A stretch of 25,890 nucleotides of DNA from positions 1 through 25,890 of the IMG/VR virus record IMGVR_UViG_3300030419_003828, one strand, 5' to 3'. This DNA is from a virus. The position numbers were made by a program, and so were the translations under genes. Of this stretch, positions 2,891 through 14,411 are shown one piece after another. Each line of letters opens with the position of its first letter. Position 1 is the stretch's first letter. Below the pieces are notes generated by a model. The model did not search any database and was not told the origin of the DNA. It saw only the letters and a list, made by a program, of their open reading frames with translations.

Positions 2891-3298
2891 ATGATGCACT
2901 TTGAAATAGTCAAAGAGATAATGGCACAGAACCCTAGATATAAGAAAGTTAATGTCATACTTCCTACTGACTATCATCACTTACTTGATATTAAGGGTAA
3001 AGCTGTAGCTATAACACACGGACATATGACTACAGGTGGTGCAGGTCCAGAGGGTAAGATAATGAAGTGGTGGCAAGGACAGATGTTTGGTTGGTTGCCT
3101 AGTGGTGCTGCTGAAATTCTTTTGACAGGGCATTATCATCACCCAAGATTACTGCAACAAGGTAAAAGAACCTGGATTCAATGTCCTAGTATTGATGCAA
3201 GTAAAGATTTCACTGCAAGAACAGGTATGTGGAATGAACCTGGTGTACTTACTTTAACTGTTGATAAGAATGGCTGGGATAACTTAAAAATCCTTTGA
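2891..3298 (+). CDS. Metallophosphoesterase, C-terminal part
   Basis: This frame supplies the motifs missing upstream: VILPTDYHHLLD (at the place of the GNHD motif), AITHGHMTTGG and LLTGHYHHPRLL, the last two being the metal-binding GH and GHxH signatures. The frame is open from 2846, and reading through gives a continuous protein with 2235-2879 if one base is corrected. An ATG at 2891 (MMHFEIVKEI) exists but has no Shine-Dalgarno, so independent translation is doubtful. The last 15 bases overlap the convergent leftward gene at 3284. It should be treated as one gene, about 350 residues, unless the split is confirmed. Confidence 0.75.
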   Translation: MMHFEIVKEIMAQNPRYKKVNVILPTDYHHLLDIKGKAVAITHGHMTTGGAGPEGKIMKWWQGQMFGWLPSGAAEILLTGHYHHPRLLQQGKRTWIQCPSIDASKDFTARTGMWNEPGVLTLTVDKNGWDNLKIL

Positions 3299-7744: not shown

Positions 7745-7826
7745 ATAGATAGCTTGTAACACACAGTCTCAGTCTCTCTTAGTTAGCGTACGTACTTCTG
7801 CGTCCTATGTGCTACAAGCTATCTAC
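7745..7826 (-). repeat. Hairpin unit 1 (arms 7745-7765 and 7806-7826)
   Basis: The 21-base arms pair along their whole length on the minus strand with three G-U pairs, plus one further G-C pair inward. The loop is about 38 bases and contains the palindrome GTACGTAC. Confidence 0.9.
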
Positions 7827-7876
7827 TTTCAGTCGCTAGGTGAAACAGGGCATTGTTTTTTAACTAGCTCTTACTT

Positions 7877-7971
7877 ATAGATAGCTTGTAACACACAAGG
7901 AAAATTGATTTGGTTACATTATACCTCACAATTTTTACCTATGAAAACCTTATGTGCTACAAGCTACCTAC
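7877..7971 (-). repeat. Hairpin unit 2 (arms 7877-7897 and 7951-7971)
   Basis: The left arm is identical to units 1 and 3; the right arm is identical to unit 3. There are four G-U pairs on the minus strand, and three more pairs inward give a 24-bp stem. The loop is about 47 bases and AT-rich, unrelated to the loop of unit 1. Confidence 0.9.
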
Positions 7972-8007
7972 TTATCCAACCATTTGCTTTCATTTCATTT
8001 GTGGAAC

Positions 8008-8088
8008 ATAGATAGCTTGTAACACACAGTTGTTTTCCAGACTTTTCCTGCAGGTTTCTAGTTAACCTATGTGCTACAAGCTACCTAC
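8008..8088 (-). repeat. Hairpin unit 3 (arms 8008-8028 and 8068-8088)
   Basis: The arms are the same as in unit 2, with one extra G-C pair inward and one extra G-U pair outward on the minus strand. The loop is about 37 bases, contains CCTGCAGG and does not resemble the other two loops. Confidence 0.9.
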
Positions 8089-8149
8089 AATCTACTCATT
8101 AAGTGGAGCTTAATTTTCAATTATTGGTAGCTTTTTCGGATATTAATAT

Positions 8150-8729: not shown

Positions 8730-9023
8730 TTAATCCCAAAACAATCCAAAATCGCCCTCACTCACTCTTTTACTTGTTCCATAATCGCTCTCTGCTTTGT
8801 GTGTGTTAAATTGGTCTTCTTGCAGTTCTTCTTCTGAAAGTTCCACAAGTTCCCCAAGTTCTTCTTCAACACTCCAACCACATTCGTTCAAACGGACTGA
8901 AGACATTTTATCGCCTCCACCATTCTCAGTAAGTTGAGTAATAAAGTCAATCGCTTCACTTCCGTTCTCAGCTTGAACGAATGCTTCGCTGTTTTGAGTA
9001 TATACTACTTTGTATAGTTTCAT
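8730..9023 (-). CDS. Hypothetical 97-residue acidic protein
   Basis: The protein begins MKLYKVVYTQNSEAFVQAEN GS, a strand followed by EAIDFITQLTENGGG. The middle (WSVEEELGELVELSEEELQE) is strongly acidic and helical, and the C-terminus is SEGDFGLFWD. The N-terminal pattern (KLYxVxxxxxxxxxVxAxxxxEAI) is seen in many small phage proteins; no function is known to me. The ribosome site is AAAGGGGAAG. Confidence 0.65.
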   Translation of the reverse strand: MKLYKVVYTQNSEAFVQAENGSEAIDFITQLTENGGGDKMSSVRLNECGWSVEEELGELVELSEEELQEDQFNTHKAESDYGTSKRVSEGDFGLFWD

Positions 9024-9055
9024 ATCTTCCCCTTTCTACTTATATCTTTTATAAA

Positions 9056-9093
9056 TAGTATTGTGTCCACCCTTGCGAATGGACACTATACTA
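9056..9093. terminator. 14-bp hairpin at the end of the 9091 gene
   Basis: TAGTATTGTGTCCA and TGGACACTATACTA pair with one T-T mismatch around a ten-base loop. On the minus strand it begins at the stop codon of the 9091-9345 gene and is followed by TATTTATAAAAG. The T-run is poor, so it may be an attenuating or mRNA-stabilising hairpin more than a true terminator. Confidence 0.5.
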
Positions 9094-9345
9094 ATTACTT
9101 ATTTTTTCCATATAATAAGCAGTCGTAGTCATAATCATTTTATGAGGAAGAAAATTATCCAACTGTATTTTCCATTTCACTTGCATTTCTTCTGTATTTT
9201 CATAAGTGTCTTGTTCAACTGCTACAATCTCACCAATGCAATCTTCATCAAGTCTTAAACCTAATGCTGATTTATTGCTTTCCTCATTTGTTAGATTGAC
9301 TTTGACTTTGTCGCCTAACTTAAATGATTTATTTTTTACATTCAT
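9091..9345 (-). CDS. Hypothetical 84-residue protein, SH3-like barrel possible
   Basis: I choose the ATG at 9345, because AAAGGGGAAAC is just upstream; a TTG at 9360 would overlap that ribosome site. The sequence has alternating strands (FKLGDKVKVNLTNEES, CIGEIVAVEQDTYEN, MQVKWKIQLDNFLPH), which resembles the KOW/SH3-like beta barrels of small phage proteins where GDxVxV and GxIVxV strands bind nucleic acid or protein. The call is by pattern only. The end overlaps the hairpin at 9056-9093. Confidence 0.6.
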   Translation of the reverse strand: MNVKNKSFKLGDKVKVNLTNEESNKSALGLRLDEDCIGEIVAVEQDTYENTEEMQVKWKIQLDNFLPHKMIMTTTAYYMEKISN

Positions 9346-9881
9346 AGTTTCCCCTTTCAAGAATACATTTGTAACCGTGTATTCTCGGTAAAGAGCATTT
9401 ATAATTGCTGTAAAACATTTCCAACAGTTTAGAGCTTCTTTTAACCCTATTATTATCGTTCACAGTTCCGTGCAAAGATAACACGATAGTAAGACTTGCT
9501 TACTCAACACATTGAATTATTGGCTTATTTTCACCCTGAGCTTTGACATAATCTCCACTACATAATTCAGTTTTTCTCTTTACCGACAACACACTTTAAG
9601 AGAGCTTTGTAGAACATACTATTATTTTTTCGCTAGTTAAGTTTTTAATTATTCACACCTATATTTCATTCTCAATCTATATAGTTAATAATCAGCGTGT
9701 GTTACTTCGGTTTCGTCTTTTACTTCTTAACAAGTAGGGTATCAAAACCCCAAGTACTCCCTTTTCAGACCTAATCAATATGTCCTATAAAGCTCTCTCG
9801 TAGGAGACTAAGTAGATAACTCATTCGATTTGGTTGCAACTTCCTCGTTTGAGGGACTGGTCTGACTCAGGTAGTTTCGAT

Positions 9882-9904
9882 AAGCGTCACTATGAAGCGT
9901 CACT
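9882..9904. repeat. Direct repeat of 10 bases
   Basis: AAGCGTCACT occurs at 9882-9891 and 9895-9904, separated by ATG, inside the third domain of the candidate RNA. Confidence 0.8.
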
Positions 9905-10048
9905 TGTGCAGAGTAGAACCATTGCCAATTGGATAGTTTTTACTCTCACAAGGTATAGCCAAGAAGTTTCTTTTGCGATACTATGGAAGTCTTTACGACC
10001 TCTCCTGAGTTACCTACTTAGTCTCCTTATTCTTTTGATACCCTCTTA

Positions 10049-10067
10049 AAACAGGTCAAGCCTGTTT
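10049..10067 (-). terminator. Hairpin directly after the 10069 gene
   Basis: AAACAGG and CCTGTTT flank a five-base loop, one base beyond the TAA of the leftward gene. On the minus strand the stem is followed only by TAAGAGG, on the plus strand by GTT. It could be a weak terminator in either direction. It overlaps and competes with the left arm of the 22-bp inverted repeat. Confidence 0.5.
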
Positions 10068-10068
10068 G

Positions 10069-10395
10069 TTATAACGTTGGTACGTTAATTATTAAATTGC
10101 TTTTTAGTTCTTGTAACTTCTCAAAGAAAGTCTCTGTATCAACTCTCTTTGATTTGTCTTCGTCTATCCAATTAAGGTGTTTGCCTGTTGTGTTGCCCCA
10201 AATATTTTGCCTGATAACTAAATCAGAAGTTGGGTGCTTAAACGCTACAAGCGTGTTGTAACTAAAATAGTATTCTATTCTATTTACATCTGTAAAAACT
10301 AGGGCATTAATTCCGTAGTTGCTACTTGAATAATTACCATAAGTTTTAACACTTACGATTTGATTTTCTAATTTATATATATCTTTTATAAACAT
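10069..10395 (-). CDS. Small phage protein with the WGNTTGKHLNWID motif
   Basis: The 108-residue protein contains strands (IVSVKTYGNYSSSNYGINAL, IEYYFSYNTLVAFK) and then LVIRQNIWGNTTGKHLNWID with a following KSKRVDTETFFEKLQEL helix. This motif order is recurrent in small proteins of many tailed phages that carry only a DUF label; the function is unknown. The start has a modest GTAGG ribosome site. The gene lies between two arms of a 22-bp inverted repeat and next to the large structured non-coding stretch, an unusual isolation compared with the tightly overlapped genes elsewhere. It is not a recognisable homing endonuclease. Confidence 0.75.
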   Translation of the reverse strand: MFIKDIYKLENQIVSVKTYGNYSSSNYGINALVFTDVNRIEYYFSYNTLVAFKHPTSDLVIRQNIWGNTTGKHLNWIDEDKSKRVDTETFFEKLQELKSNLIINVPTL

Positions 10396-10474
10396 ATTAC
10401 CTACTTTCTTTAAGTGCCTGACCTGTTTTAAGGGGGTATCATATTTTTTTGCCCCTTACGACTATTTAAGGACT

Positions 10475-10655
10475 TCAATTGTCCTGCTTTTTTGGTGAAG
10501 GTAGCTTAGGCTGTCGACCCTCCAGAACTTCCCTTTTATTAGGAGTTAAAGTTCTAATTTCCCCTTTTAGTTCTTCTTCTTGTATTTAAGCTTACCAGCT
10601 TTTTAATCTTTGTCAAATCTCTTTGACATTCTTTTAGTCTTTTATAAGTCCTCAA
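10475..10655 (-). pseudogene. Possible small gene broken by one base
   Basis: A TTG at 10655 with AGGA seven bases upstream, about 30 bases after the start point of the leftward promoter, opens RTYKRLKECQRDLTKIKK LVSLN. In the plus-one frame from about 10587 the sequence continues QEEELKGEIRTLTPNKREVL and EGRQPKLPSPKKQDN to a TGA at 10475. Joined, they give about 59 residues of coiled-coil-like then basic, proline-rich protein. Promoter, ribosome site and the protein-like composition of both parts argue for one gene with a single-base indel, real or from assembly. Neither part alone would be convincing. Confidence 0.4.
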
Positions 10656-10691
10656 GTATATTTCCTAACTGTATTGAAACTTATAATATAT

Positions 10692-10720
10692 AATATAGTC
10701 AAATGAGTTTTACTTGTCAA
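10692..10720 (-). promoter_or_regulatory. Leftward consensus promoter
   Basis: On the minus strand TTGACA (10720-10715), a 17-base spacer and TATATT (10697-10692). The predicted start is near 10685. It should drive the genes at 10655 and 10395 and possibly the structured leftward region. Confidence 0.75.
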
Positions 10721-10752
10721 GTTTATTATAAAATTATTATTGTAAATATGAT

Positions 10753-10781
10753 TTGACATAGGGTAGGTTACGTGGTATAAT
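10753..10781 (+). promoter_or_regulatory. Rightward perfect-consensus sigma70 promoter
   Basis: TTGACA (10753-10758), exactly 17 bases, then TATAAT (10776-10781). Both hexamers are perfect. It points rightwards into about 730 bases with no rightward gene, so it most likely makes a non-coding RNA. Its -35 box is 33 bases from that of the leftward promoter. Confidence 0.85.
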
Positions 10782-10787
10782 AAGAGG

Positions 10788-11189
10788 TTAAATATACGGG
10801 GTGGGGCTAATCAATCTTTCTTAATATCACAACAGAACCACTCATAATATCTATACTTCTATACATAAATAATCTAACTGTACACACTTAGATTTAATCT
10901 AGTTACAAATTGGTAAAAACTACCAAATAAAACCTATGGGAATATCAATTTCAGGGGTATCTTTATTTTGTCTTAGACATCTATATATATAAAGAACAAA
11001 CTCTAGTAAAAAACTAAAAGATTACTTTAAGAGATTGTTTGCATACGTTAGGTGAGCTATCACAGTAGTAACCCTTACCTGTCTTTTTTAGAATGTGCTT
11101 ACATTCTTTACATTTTTTATTCAATAATATATATTTTAATTCTTAATATCCTTTTTGGGCAGTAACGGGCATAGAAGTGTGTAGGCTTG
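10788..11189 (+). other. Non-coding stretch downstream of the rightward promoter
   Basis: This is AT-rich sequence with no credible rightward gene. Minor hairpins are visible: AATCTA/TAGATT around 10871-10894 and TTGGTA/TACCAA at about 10909-10925. A possible leftward zinc-motif frame crosses it at 11014-11124. It may be the 5' part of the RNA started at about 10788. Confidence 0.5.
11014..11124 (-). CDS. Possible 36-residue zinc-binding peptide
   Basis: A TTG-start frame encodes NKKCKECKHILKKTGKGYYC and then DSSPNVCKQSLKVIF. The CxxC...C...C spacing resembles a zinc knuckle and recalls other tiny zinc proteins in this genome. There is no convincing ribosome site (an AAAAAGGA lies about 25 bases upstream) and no ATG, so it may be a remnant of a longer gene or a chance frame. 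Confidence 0.3.
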   Translation of the reverse strand: MNKKCKECKHILKKTGKGYYCDSSPNVCKQSLKVIF

Positions 11190-11312
11190 AAAAATTAATT
11201 TTAAGTAGTCCTTGGGTAGCTTACTTGTCTTTCTAGTTGGTCAGGTCTCCCTGGTAAGCCTTTTGTACTCCCGATGTCCTCTTTACCTGTAACTACCTAC
11301 TTCTTAATTTTT
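11190..11312 (+). ncRNA. Branched structured domain in the rightward transcript
   Basis: AAAAATTAA (11190-11198) pairs with 11304-11312 and AAGTAG (11203-11208) with 11297-11302, giving 15 pairs around a small bulge. Inside, GTAG/CTAC and TTAC/GTAA continue the stem (11215-11223 with 11289-11296) and CAGG-TCTC-CCTG forms a terminal hairpin near 11241-11252. Nested pairing over 120 bases in a gene-free region suggests a structured RNA. Confidence 0.5.
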
Positions 11313-11393
11313 GTTTGTTATAACTTACAATACTATCATAGTTCTATTAATATAGATAGTACATAAAAACTCTTCCTGTGATTATGTATACAA

Positions 11394-11419
11394 ATCCCTG
11401 CCTCCCCTTTGGTAGGGAT
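11394..11419 (+). ncRNA. 9-bp hairpin before the tRNA-like fold
   Basis: ATCCCTGCC and GGTAGGGAT pair with one G-U pair (plus strand) around an eight-base loop. It stands eight bases before the tRNA-like element and could be a processing signal or part of the same RNA. Confidence 0.6.
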
Positions 11420-11427
11420 ACAAAGAA

Positions 11428-11504
11428 TGTGGGGGTGTCCAAGTTAGAGTCTCTGCTGGGCAACCAATAGAGATAACGTGGGTGCAAATCCCACCACCTC
11501 CACA
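11428..11504 (+). ncRNA. tRNA/tmRNA-like element without normal anticodon and D arms
   Basis: A ten-pair closing stem (11428-11437 with 11495-11504) contains the acceptor-like pair GGGGGTG/CACCTCC with A after it. A T-arm-like hairpin GTGGG-TGCAAAT-CCCAC (11478-11494) is stacked directly on it. A second arm TCTCT/AGAGA (11450-11454, 11469-11473) ends in TGG-GCAA-CCA, a GNRA tetraloop in place of an anticodon loop. The D-arm position is a 12-base unpaired linker. The T loop has G where tRNAs have the second conserved U. GGGGGTG...CACCTCCA strongly recalls bacterial tmRNA ends, whose tRNA domain also lacks a D stem. No 3' CCA is encoded. Confidence 0.55.
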
Positions 11505-11522
11505 GAAAAAAAATTTTTTTTT
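11505..11522 (+). terminator. A8-T9 tract after the tRNA-like fold
   Basis: Eight A followed by nine T directly downstream of the stable closing stem. The T-run would suit transcript termination or 3' end formation for the rightward RNA. The A-run between stem and T-run is atypical for an intrinsic terminator, so the call is moderate. Confidence 0.5.
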
Positions 11523-11548
11523 ATTCCAAAGCAAGTCTGTGTTCTATA

Positions 11549-11554
11549 TATAAT
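11549..11554 (+). promoter_or_regulatory. -10 box placed for a leaderless methyltransferase mRNA
   Basis: TATAAT ends six bases before the ATG at 11561, so the first transcribed base would be the start codon itself. No Shine-Dalgarno sequence is present. A -35 box is not convincing. Leaderless genes with such -10 positions are common in actinobacteria. Confidence 0.5.
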
Positions 11555-11560
11555 TCAGTA

Positions 11561-12103
11561 ATGATTCCTTTTCCAGACAATAAATATAATATAATTTATG
11601 CTGACCCACCTTGGTCTTTTAAGAATTACAGTAAGAAAGGAGAGGAGAGAAACCCTAATCAACACTATCTAACAATGGGTAAGGAAGATATAAAGCAACT
11701 TCCTGTAAATGATATAGCAGCAGATAACTCGGTTTTATTCTTATGGGTAGTTAATCATTCTCTACCCCTAGCTTTTGAAGTAATAGATAGTTGGGGTTTT
11801 GAGTACAAGACTATGGCTTTTGTTTGGGTTAAGAGAAATATTAAATCAGAGGGGTTTTTTACAGGGTTGGGGTATTGGACAAGAGGAAACCCAGAGCTAT
11901 GTTTATTAGCTACCAAAGGGAAACCAAGCAGGGTTTCAAAAGCTGTTAAAGAATTGGTAATAGAGCCTAGACAAAAGCACAGTAAAAAACCAGACAGAAT
12001 TAGAAATGATATTGTTAATTTATGTGGAAATCTACCACGCATAGAATTGTTTGCTAGAGAAACAGCAGAGGGTTGGGATAGTTGGGGTAATGAAGTTAGT
12101 TAA
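11561..12103 (+). CDS. MT-A70 family adenine-N6 DNA methyltransferase
   Basis: The 180-residue protein has the hallmark DPPW motif (residues 15-18, in YNIIYADPPWSFKNY). The rest of the MT-A70 order follows: YLTMGKEDIKQLPV, the strand FLWVVNHSLPLAFEVI, WVKRNIKSEGFFTGLGYWTR, NPELCLLATKG, and the C-terminal RIELFARETAEGWDSWGNE that completes the SAM-binding fold. It transfers a methyl group from SAM to the N6 of adenine, probably in phage DNA to block host restriction or to mark replication. The length is normal for phage members. It appears to be transcribed alone from a leaderless promoter, and its end overlaps the convergent gene at 12096 by eight bases. Confidence 0.93.
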   Translation: MIPFPDNKYNIIYADPPWSFKNYSKKGEERNPNQHYLTMGKEDIKQLPVNDIAADNSVLFLWVVNHSLPLAFEVIDSWGFEYKTMAFVWVKRNIKSEGFFTGLGYWTRGNPELCLLATKGKPSRVSKAVKELVIEPRQKHSKKPDRIRNDIVNLCGNLPRIELFARETAEGWDSWGNEVS

Positions 12104-12302
12104 TCGGTTCTTGTAATCCAGTGGGTGCTTTTCTTCCCTTGATTCTTGGAATTGTTTTTATCTTATGTTTATTACACCAAGGGTGTTTATTGTATTTTGA
12201 AATAACAGTTTTACAATCTTCCTTTTTACACACCCTTCCACTACTATAAGTCTTAGAGGGTTTAGCATTAGGGTATTTATTACCTTTGATATAATCACTC
12301 AT
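12096..12302 (-). CDS. Small CCCH zinc-finger protein
   Basis: This 68-residue basic protein has a probable zinc site C25-x4-C30-x12-C43-x2-H46 (VCKKEDCKTVISKYN then PWCNKH). Many small actinophage proteins of this type carry the ending WCNKH or LCxxH. The basic termini suggest nucleic-acid binding. There is no ribosome site, but TATACT on the minus strand (12316-12311) ends eight bases before the ATG, so this too looks leaderless. It lies alone against the rightward flow, between the methyltransferase and the packaging genes. Confidence 0.7.
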   Translation of the reverse strand: MSDYIKGNKYPNAKPSKTYSSGRVCKKEDCKTVISKYNKHPWCNKHKIKTIPRIKGRKAPTGLQEPIN

Positions 12303-12391: not shown

Positions 12392-12498
12392 TGCCTTTTA
12401 AGAAAGTTGGACCAAACAAATATAAATCCCCTAGTGGAAGAATATTTACAGGAAAACAAGTTAAAGCCTATTATGCAAAAAATAGAAAGAAAAGGTAA
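12391..12498 (+). CDS. 35-residue basic micro-protein
   Basis: It is coupled on both sides by TAATG overlaps. The sequence MPFKKVGPNKYKSPSGRIFT continues GKQVKAYYAKNRKKR, with a K-x-Y-x-S-P-S-G-x-x-F-T pattern that looks like a conserved short fold and not a random frame. Basic and probably nucleic-acid-binding; perhaps linked to packaging because it is directly upstream of the terminase. Confidence 0.65.
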   Translation: MPFKKVGPNKYKSPSGRIFTGKQVKAYYAKNRKKR

Positions 12499-14411
12499 TG
12501 CCCAAACCTATATGTAAAAAAAACTCTTACAAAGGAGAGACCTGTAGAAGGCAGAGAAGAACACATAGTCCGTACTGTTCTGACAAATGTAGAAACAGAG
12601 CTGCTTACTTAAGAAAGAAAAACAAAGAAGAGCTTGAGCAACCAGCCGAGTTTGTTGAAAGGAAACTTCCTTCAACAGTTTCCAGAGGACCTCACTATGA
12701 GTACTTTGTTGGTAGTTATGCACAAGCTATTGAAGAAGGAAAGTTAACACATCAGAAGGTTGCGAACAAAATGAACATAGCTAGAAGTATTGTTACAAAA
12801 ATGTATCAGGCTTACCTAGAAGATAAAATGATTTTGGAGCAACAAGAAAACTGGGAGACACCAAAAGAAGCTGTTAAGAGTTTAGAGGAGTTTACCAAGT
12901 TTAGAGATAGATACTTTTTAACAGAGACAGGAGAGAAGTATGAAACAGCAGACTTTCACATCAAGTGGATTAACTCTATATTAGATGCTATAGATAACGG
13001 AAAACAACAAATGATTTTATCTCCTCCTAGGCACGGAAAGACAGACTTACTTACACACTTTGCAGTATGGCAGATTTGTAAAAACCCTAACATACGAGTT
13101 ATGTGGGTTGGTGGTAATGAGGAGATAGCAAAGAACGCAGTTGGTGCTGTGTTAGACCATTTAGAAAATAATGAACAATTAATTTTAGATTTCTGTGGAC
13201 CTGGTAATACATTCCAACCAAAAGTTAGAAGTGGAAAGTCCTGGTCATCAGGACAGTTTACAGTTGCAACAAGAAATGTAACTGGAATTAAATCTCCATC
13301 TATGGTTGCTGTAGGTAAAGGTGGAAAGATTCTCTCAAGAGATTGTGATTTGATTATTGCTGATGACATTGAGGACCACGGAACAACTATTCAACCAAGT
13401 GCAAGGGAACAGACAAGACAATGGTGGACAACAACTCTCTCTTCAAGGAAAGAGGAACATACAGCTATTGTAGTTATAGGTTCAAGACAGCACCCAGAGG
13501 ATTTATATAACTTTCTTTTAGAAAACCCAGAGATGGAGACAATAGTAGAAGAAGCACACGATTCGTTATGTGTAAAACCAGAGACAGAGGTTGAAAAACA
13601 TAAAAAGTGTATGTTGTGGGCATCTAAGAGAAGTTACAAGTGGTTAATGTCTCAGAAAAACAATGCAGACACAACAGGTGGTAGAGCAATTTTTGAAATG
13701 GTGTATTTGAATAAAGCATTTGTTGAAGGGATTACAATGTTTAGTTCTGAAGAGGTGGACCAATGTAGAGATGTAAACAGAGTAATAGGACATATCCCAT
13801 CAGGAACTCATTTGATTGCTGGGCTTGACCCTGCATCTACAGGATTTCAGGCTTGTTTCTTATGGGCAGCTAATCCAGAGACAGGAATGTTGTATTTAGT
13901 AGATATAGAAAACGAAGAAGGTGGAGGAGTTATACAGGCAAGGAAGTCTATAAAGAAGTGGTATGATATGTACGGACTTTCTCATTGGGTTATTGAGGAA
14001 AACGGATTTCAAAAAGCCATTAGGCAAGATATAGAGTTAAAAAATTATACAGCAAGAAATGGAATACACTTAGAGGGTCATCAGACACAGAAAAACAAAT
14101 ATGACCCAATTTATGGTGTTGGCTCTATGAAACAGCTTTTTGAACAAAGTCTAATAAGTTTGCCATATGGCAATACAGAAAGTGAAACTAAGAGTAATAT
14201 ATATCGTAGACAACTAATTTATTTTTCATCTGCTGCTAGTAGGGCAAGTAAGGCGAAAAGTTACAAATCAGATGTTGTAATGGCATCTTGGTTTCCAATG
14301 AGAGTTGTAAGGAGACTAGGTAAAGAGAGAATGGCTGAAATAGGATATGAGTACACACCAAGTTTTGGTGAATGGGATATAAGCGAAATGAACGAAGCAC
14401 CTTGGAGTTAA
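12498..14411 (+). CDS. terL: Terminase large subunit with N-terminal zinc and helix-turn-helix extension
   Basis: The 637-residue protein packages DNA into the capsid. Residues 1-40 contain a Cys cluster (C6, C16, C27, C31), and 82-110 (KLTHQKVANKMNIARSIVTK) look like a helix-turn-helix. The ATPase follows: Walker A SPPRHGKT at 175-182 and Walker B LIIADDIED at 285-293. The RNase-H-like nuclease begins with AGLDPAS (D444), then VIEENG (E500), and has a late Asp in KSDVVMA. No separate small terminase is seen, so the N-terminal DNA-binding part may replace it; this is inference. The start overlaps the preceding stop. Length exceeds many single-domain large subunits by about the size of this extension. 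Confidence 0.93.
   Translation: MPKPICKKNSYKGETCRRQRRTHSPYCSDKCRNRAAYLRKKNKEELEQPAEFVERKLPSTVSRGPHYEYFVGSYAQAIEEGKLTHQKVANKMNIARSIVTKMYQAYLEDKMILEQQENWETPKEAVKSLEEFTKFRDRYFLTETGEKYETADFHIKWINSILDAIDNGKQQMILSPPRHGKTDLLTHFAVWQICKNPNIRVMWVGGNEEIAKNAVGAVLDHLENNEQLILDFCGPGNTFQPKVRSGKSWSSGQFTVATRNVTGIKSPSMVAVGKGGKILSRDCDLIIADDIEDHGTTIQPSAREQTRQWWTTTLSSRKEEHTAIVVIGSRQHPEDLYNFLLENPEMETIVEEAHDSLCVKPETEVEKHKKCMLWASKRSYKWLMSQKNNADTTGGRAIFEMVYLNKAFVEGITMFSSEEVDQCRDVNRVIGHIPSGTHLIAGLDPASTGFQACFLWAANPETGMLYLVDIENEEGGGVIQARKSIKKWYDMYGLSHWVIEENGFQKAIRQDIELKNYTARNGIHLEGHQTQKNKYDPIYGVGSMKQLFEQSLISLPYGNTESETKSNIYRRQLIYFSSAASRASKAKSYKSDVVMASWFPMRVVRRLGKERMAEIGYEYTPSFGEWDISEMNEAPWS

Follow-up and report, generated by a model that had tools for sequence, protein, structure and literature searches.

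Phages are known to encode large, elaborate non-coding RNAs of unknown function, of which the GOLLD and ROOL RNAs are the closest described parallels to the locus examined here. Each is a single large RNA with many helices and candidate tertiary contacts that is often located near tRNA islands and forms cages, a homo-oligomeric nanocage in the case of GOLLD, and many GOLLD RNAs exceed 800 nt (PMC12286853). In ribosomal RNA precursors and T7-type early mRNAs, functional units of a polycistronic transcript are enclosed or separated by long helices of about 20 or more base pairs that are cut by RNase III. Finally, hammerhead ribozymes provide examples in which the strands of an RNA core are exchanged in order while the fold is kept (PMC10085705).

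The locus lies in an uncultured virus contig from IMG/VR (IMGVR_UViG_3300030419_003828), which was analyzed as one stretch of 25,890 nucleotides (hereafter the window) and which carries a tailed-phage terminase at 12498-14411. An initial annotation, made from sequence alone, had proposed that positions 9360-10067 hold one large multi-domain RNA recalling GOLLD and ROOL, formed by three consecutive stem-closed domains of about 200 bases and probably paired on the plus strand, antisense to the neighboring genes. The observation itself is confirmed, as the three domains and their closing stems are present in the intergenic space between minus-strand ORFs 10069-10395 and 9091-9360. The interpretation is only partly supported, because this is a real and elaborate structured RNA region, but one that is made of three separate modules in tandem. 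The modules, designated D1, D2 and D3, and associated features are as follows.

9802-10027, minus strand: module D1, 226 nt, with closing helix 10027-10006/9823-9802, core internal-loop strand A (AGTATCGCAAAAGAAACT) at 9982-9965, core strand B (GCTTATCGAAACTACCTG) at 9885-9868, and conserved GAAGTTGCAACCAAA at 9843-9829
9598-9799, minus strand: module D2, 202 nt, with closing-helix arms 9798-9779/9618-9599, a covarying hairpin at 9751-9736, and an invariant loop-helix GUUAAG/CUUAAC (about 9731-9726 with 9641-9636)
9377-9594, minus strand: module D3, 218 nt, with closing arms 9594-9576/9395-9377 and three inner stem regions
10036-10061, minus strand: conserved element just 5' of D1 (GACCTGTTTTAAGAGGGTATC at 10037-10057), with an inverted copy at 10416-10441
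10692-10720, minus strand: promoter-like site for the minus-strand early genes (TTGACA-17-TATATT), by consensus match only
9063-9086, minus strand: terminator-like hairpin downstream (GTGTCCATTCGCAAGGGTGGACAC), by pattern match only
7745-8090, minus strand: three tandem modules of a related small class with shared arms GTAGGTAGCTTGTAGCACATA / TGTGTGTTACAAGCTATCTAT

The closing stems of D1, D2 and D3 comprise 22 positions, 20 positions (90% complementary) and 19 positions (89%), respectively. When the stretch was folded and compared with dinucleotide shuffles, the minus strand reached -203.7 kcal/mol (z -7.45) and the plus strand -180.7 kcal/mol (z -5.78), and 0 of 20 shuffles were as good on either strand. 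In shuffles of a 226-base module, the longest comparable helix was usually only 4-11 bp. By comparison, the plus-strand spacer at 10782-11560 is not unusually structured (z -1.7).

The preference of the initial annotation for the plus strand is not borne out. The closing arms hold three G-U positions on the minus strand against one on the plus strand, and four one-sided changes (three in D1, one in D2) between the window and another IMG/VR contig, L257, stay paired only on the minus strand. The modules therefore lie sense, and not antisense, to the small genes around them. A reading of the stretch as a gene scrambled by indels, which had been named in advance as a refuting outcome, was not supported either, as the 71-aa plus-strand ORF has no Pfam match and changes among homologues follow base pairs.

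Comparison with GOLLD and ROOL gave no sign of membership in either class. No Rfam family reaches its gathering score in the window, a permissive scan of 9000-11600 lists neither RNA, and scans of the homologues at gathering and permissive thresholds likewise gave nothing credible. There are no tRNA genes in the window or in 27 related loci. The only hint of one in the window is a tRNA-like match on the plus strand at 11431-11502 that falls below the Rfam threshold (25.3 bits, E 0.026) and is not called by ARAGORN, and that lies downstream of a perfect extended sigma-70 promoter match at 10753-10781. Furthermore, the array consists of separate modules of about 200-230 nt whose order and partners change between phages. 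It may nevertheless share the general theme of these large phage RNAs.

Relatives of D1 and D2 were first revealed by BLASTN searches against contigs fetched through neighboring genes and through a nearby repeat, which showed that each domain has its own relatives in other contigs (given L numbers here). Pattern scans with the conserved cores then yielded D1 in L103, L209, L211, L213, L214, L219, L221 and L222, D1 with the core strands swapped in L210 and L218, and D2 in L117, L159, L188, L223, L224, L228, L229 and L230. Five viral hits of the D1 pattern and three of the D2 pattern lacked the rest of the motif and were dropped. A covariance model of D1 recovered the swapped members (E about 1e-29) and an independent member in L112/L251 that had not been used to build the model (E 9e-23), although E-values from the shortened calibration used are rough. 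In total, D1 was found in about a dozen other IMG/VR phage contigs and D2 in nine. Neither family has a credible Rfam match.

Both families retain their shape more faithfully than their letters. In the nine-sequence D1 alignment, whose members are all 221-235 nt long, 28 of 42 predicted pairs carry two-sided changes, 90.6% of cells are paired against 38-48% when partners are slid by 1-3 columns, and no shuffle of 500 reaches any of the five measures used. This structure was partly derived from the same nine sequences on which it was counted, and the L112 and L257 members serve as the independent checks. For D2, the alignment of eight sequences represents only about three lineages. Here, 98.0% of cells are paired against 29-53%, and 15 of 31 pairs have two-sided changes. 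The D2 covariation score was matched by 0 of 500 shuffles, but the number of pairs with change was reached by 8 of 500, and the count of pair types does not exceed the shuffles. In both families it is the closing helix of about 20-30 bp that changes sequence while remaining paired, whereas the inner motifs are nearly invariant.

The closing helix of D1, which is 20-26 bp long, encloses a junction with a hairpin that usually ends in GAAA, the segment RUUGCAAY (GUUGCAAC or AUUGCAAU, such that its two end letters covary), and a long arm. This arm holds a conserved two-stranded core (strand A AGUAUCGNAAAAGAAACU, strand B AGU..GCUUAUCGAAACU, each followed by ACCUG-like sequence) and ends in a conserved apical loop of the type AUCCNA..GG. 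In L210, the two core strands have changed places relative to L221, while the three flanking parts are 39/40, 74/79 and 64/67 identical. This exchange can be read as a natural experiment showing that A and B form one two-sided motif that works in either orientation. It parallels the permuted hammerhead ribozymes, but the core is different, the RNA is larger, no catalysis has been shown, and the exchange occurs within one otherwise ~95% identical molecule.

D1 and D2 usually occur without each other. Among the contigs searched with both models, those with D1 and those with D2 do not overlap, apart from the window and L257, which was found with the last scan. L257 carries D1 and D2 in the same order and with the same short linker, 89% identical over 460 bases, but the interior of D3 is missing there and other stem-closed units follow. 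Five positions of the D1 closing helix differ between the window and L257, and all five still pair, two of them by double change. D3 rests on folding alone (z -4.4, 0 of 200 shuffles), as no homologue was found by BLASTN, nhmmer or a single-sequence covariance model in 80 contigs. A 12-nt complementarity between 9736-9747 and 10033-10044 was considered as a long-range helix, but its upstream half is absent in L257 and the other D2 homologues, and it is treated as incidental.

Near relatives lack the array at this site, so it is accessory. Contigs L005 and L068, which share about 99% terminase identity with the window, have the same upstream gene cassette but run from GGGTATCAAAAG straight to the next ribosome-binding site, whereas L085 has a different module there. 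The same two relatives lack the DNA methyltransferase gene (11561-12103), as their homology jumps from 11521 to 12106. The conserved element 5' of D1 and its inverted copy form a 26-base inverted repeat that flanks the 108-aa ORF, and the 21-mer GACCTGTTTTAAGRGGGTATC recurs in both orientations in many related contigs. Its one mismatch would be G-U on the plus strand, and it might be an operator, promoter or processing site. Elsewhere in the window, two adjacent plus-strand ORFs (2235-2879 and 2891-3298) match the first and second parts of the same exonuclease family (phrog_284, positions 37-214 and 264-384), indicating a split or frameshifted gene.

The same phages carry many smaller modules. 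The three at 7745-8090 share a helix of about 22 bp, have different interiors, and are followed by a terminator-like hairpin (GAACGCCCCCATTAATTTGGGGGTGTTTTTTTT on the minus strand). A pattern scan for the arm matched at least 120 stretches in IMG/VR, and from these and other fetched loci 172 distinct modules with about 85 kinds of interior were extracted. Because this sample was seeded on arm sequences, its outer-arm conservation is partly by construction. The shared helix keeps G-U pairs at positions 1, 5, 15 and 20 and has a median length of 23 bp with quartiles of 22 and 25, a size similar to the closing helices of D1 (20-26 bp) and D2 (21-31 bp), whose sequences vary widely. The helices of D1, D2 and the small modules fit the length of about 20 bp or more that encloses units processed by RNase III, whereas the D3 helix, with 18 bp, falls short of it. 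D1 lies 8 nt from a small module in L210, and D2 is followed by one in L188 and L159. In L214, a stretch of about 2.5 kb (272-2743) without an ORF of 70 aa or more holds D1 and several stem-closed modules. Some payloads of the small modules (L108:3224-3366, L090:9251-9353) end in a tRNA T-arm-like sequence (e.g., GTAGGTTCAAATCCTAC), suggesting tRNA-like payloads.

Wider searches did not place these RNAs among known sequences. BLASTN of the array, the modules and their homologues against phage isolates and plasmids gave no credible match, and a search with the exact arm pattern of D1 gave none. The D1 core 18-mer had ten hits in 84,980 cellular genomes, read as chance matches because none shows the rest of the D1 core, and the small-module arm pattern had none. 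No description of D1, D2 or the module arrays was found in the literature that could be searched.

The explanation that is somewhat favored is that the stretch is a tandem array of three independently folding non-coding RNA modules in a spacer of the minus-strand early operon. The comparative data establish that D1 and D2 are RNA families conserved in structure, on the minus strand, that they are found singly or in other combinations in other phage contigs, that each sits inside a covarying helix of 20-31 bp, and that the array is present or absent between phages with nearly identical terminase genes. In contrast, everything about expression and mechanism is inferred, including co-transcription with the early genes from the promoter-like site, release at the closing helices, as in ribosomal RNA precursors, by RNase III or a similar double-strand ribonuclease that measures about two helical turns, and action of the released RNAs, with their rigid conserved cores, in trans by binding a host or phage factor. 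Host takeover or counter-defense would be the likeliest use of accessory, exchangeable early-region cassettes. The release idea rests only on the length of the helices, on their position around each unit, and on the fact that in D1 and D2 the helix sequence drifts while length and pairing stay. Trans action is favored because there is no constant neighboring gene and because whole arrays come and go.

The main rival, although less likely, is that the modules are cis-acting mRNA elements that stabilize, insulate or tune translation of the small early genes on either side, or bind a ligand as regulators, and do nothing once detached. Most D1 and D2 copies lie upstream or downstream of small early genes and are usually co-directional with them. 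D2 lies 21-34 nt before a co-directional ORF in L223, L224, L229 and L230, and the array in the window ends just before the ribosome-binding site of the minus-strand ORF 9091-9360. However, D1 and D2 loci have no common downstream gene, several modules in tandem and non-coding stretches of up to 2.5 kb are more than a leader needs, and in L211 and L222 the nearest large downstream gene is on the other strand.

It is unlikely that the three domains assemble into one RNA particle of about 650 nt, perhaps as an oligomer in the manner of GOLLD or ROOL. The constant D1-D2 linker is consistent with this possibility, as are the GAAA-type tetraloops, conserved apical loop and self-complementary RUUGCAAY segment of D1, which are the kind of parts that make tertiary or dimer contacts. 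Arguing against it are the mostly separate occurrence of D1 and D2, the missing D3 interior in L257, and the absence of a match to either class. Similarly doubtful is a self-cleaving or otherwise catalytic role for D1 or D2. Near-invariant unpaired cores with freely changing helices, the strand permutation and the D2 pseudoknot might suggest one, but the modules are much larger than known small self-cleaving ribozymes, match no ribozyme family in Rfam, and show a permutation that is also possible for a binding site. Least likely is a DNA-level recombination or replication element whose RNA-like pairing is a by-product, because although homology blocks between near relatives begin and end at or near such repeats and array and gene cassettes are exchanged there, one-sided changes stay paired only as G-U on one strand, G-U positions are fixed in the shared helix of the 172 small modules, and GNRA-type loops and strand-specific internal-loop motifs are present.

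A more far-reaching possibility, which can be advanced only tentatively, is that these loci represent an undescribed phage system. In this view, early-region arrays would hold exchangeable RNA cassettes, each a distinct folded payload inside a measured helix of about 22-25 bp that serves as a common release handle, so that related phages carry different sets of trans-acting RNAs much as others carry sets of small protein genes. The uniform helix length makes the release hypothesis directly testable, and the natural strand swap in the D1 core, together with its conserved apical loop, tetraloop and self-complementary segment, makes D1 a good target for structure determination. Overall, two new RNA families with strong covariation, and an array architecture with some 85 payload kinds in a sample of 172, would add a layer of RNA-based accessory functions to uncultured phages.
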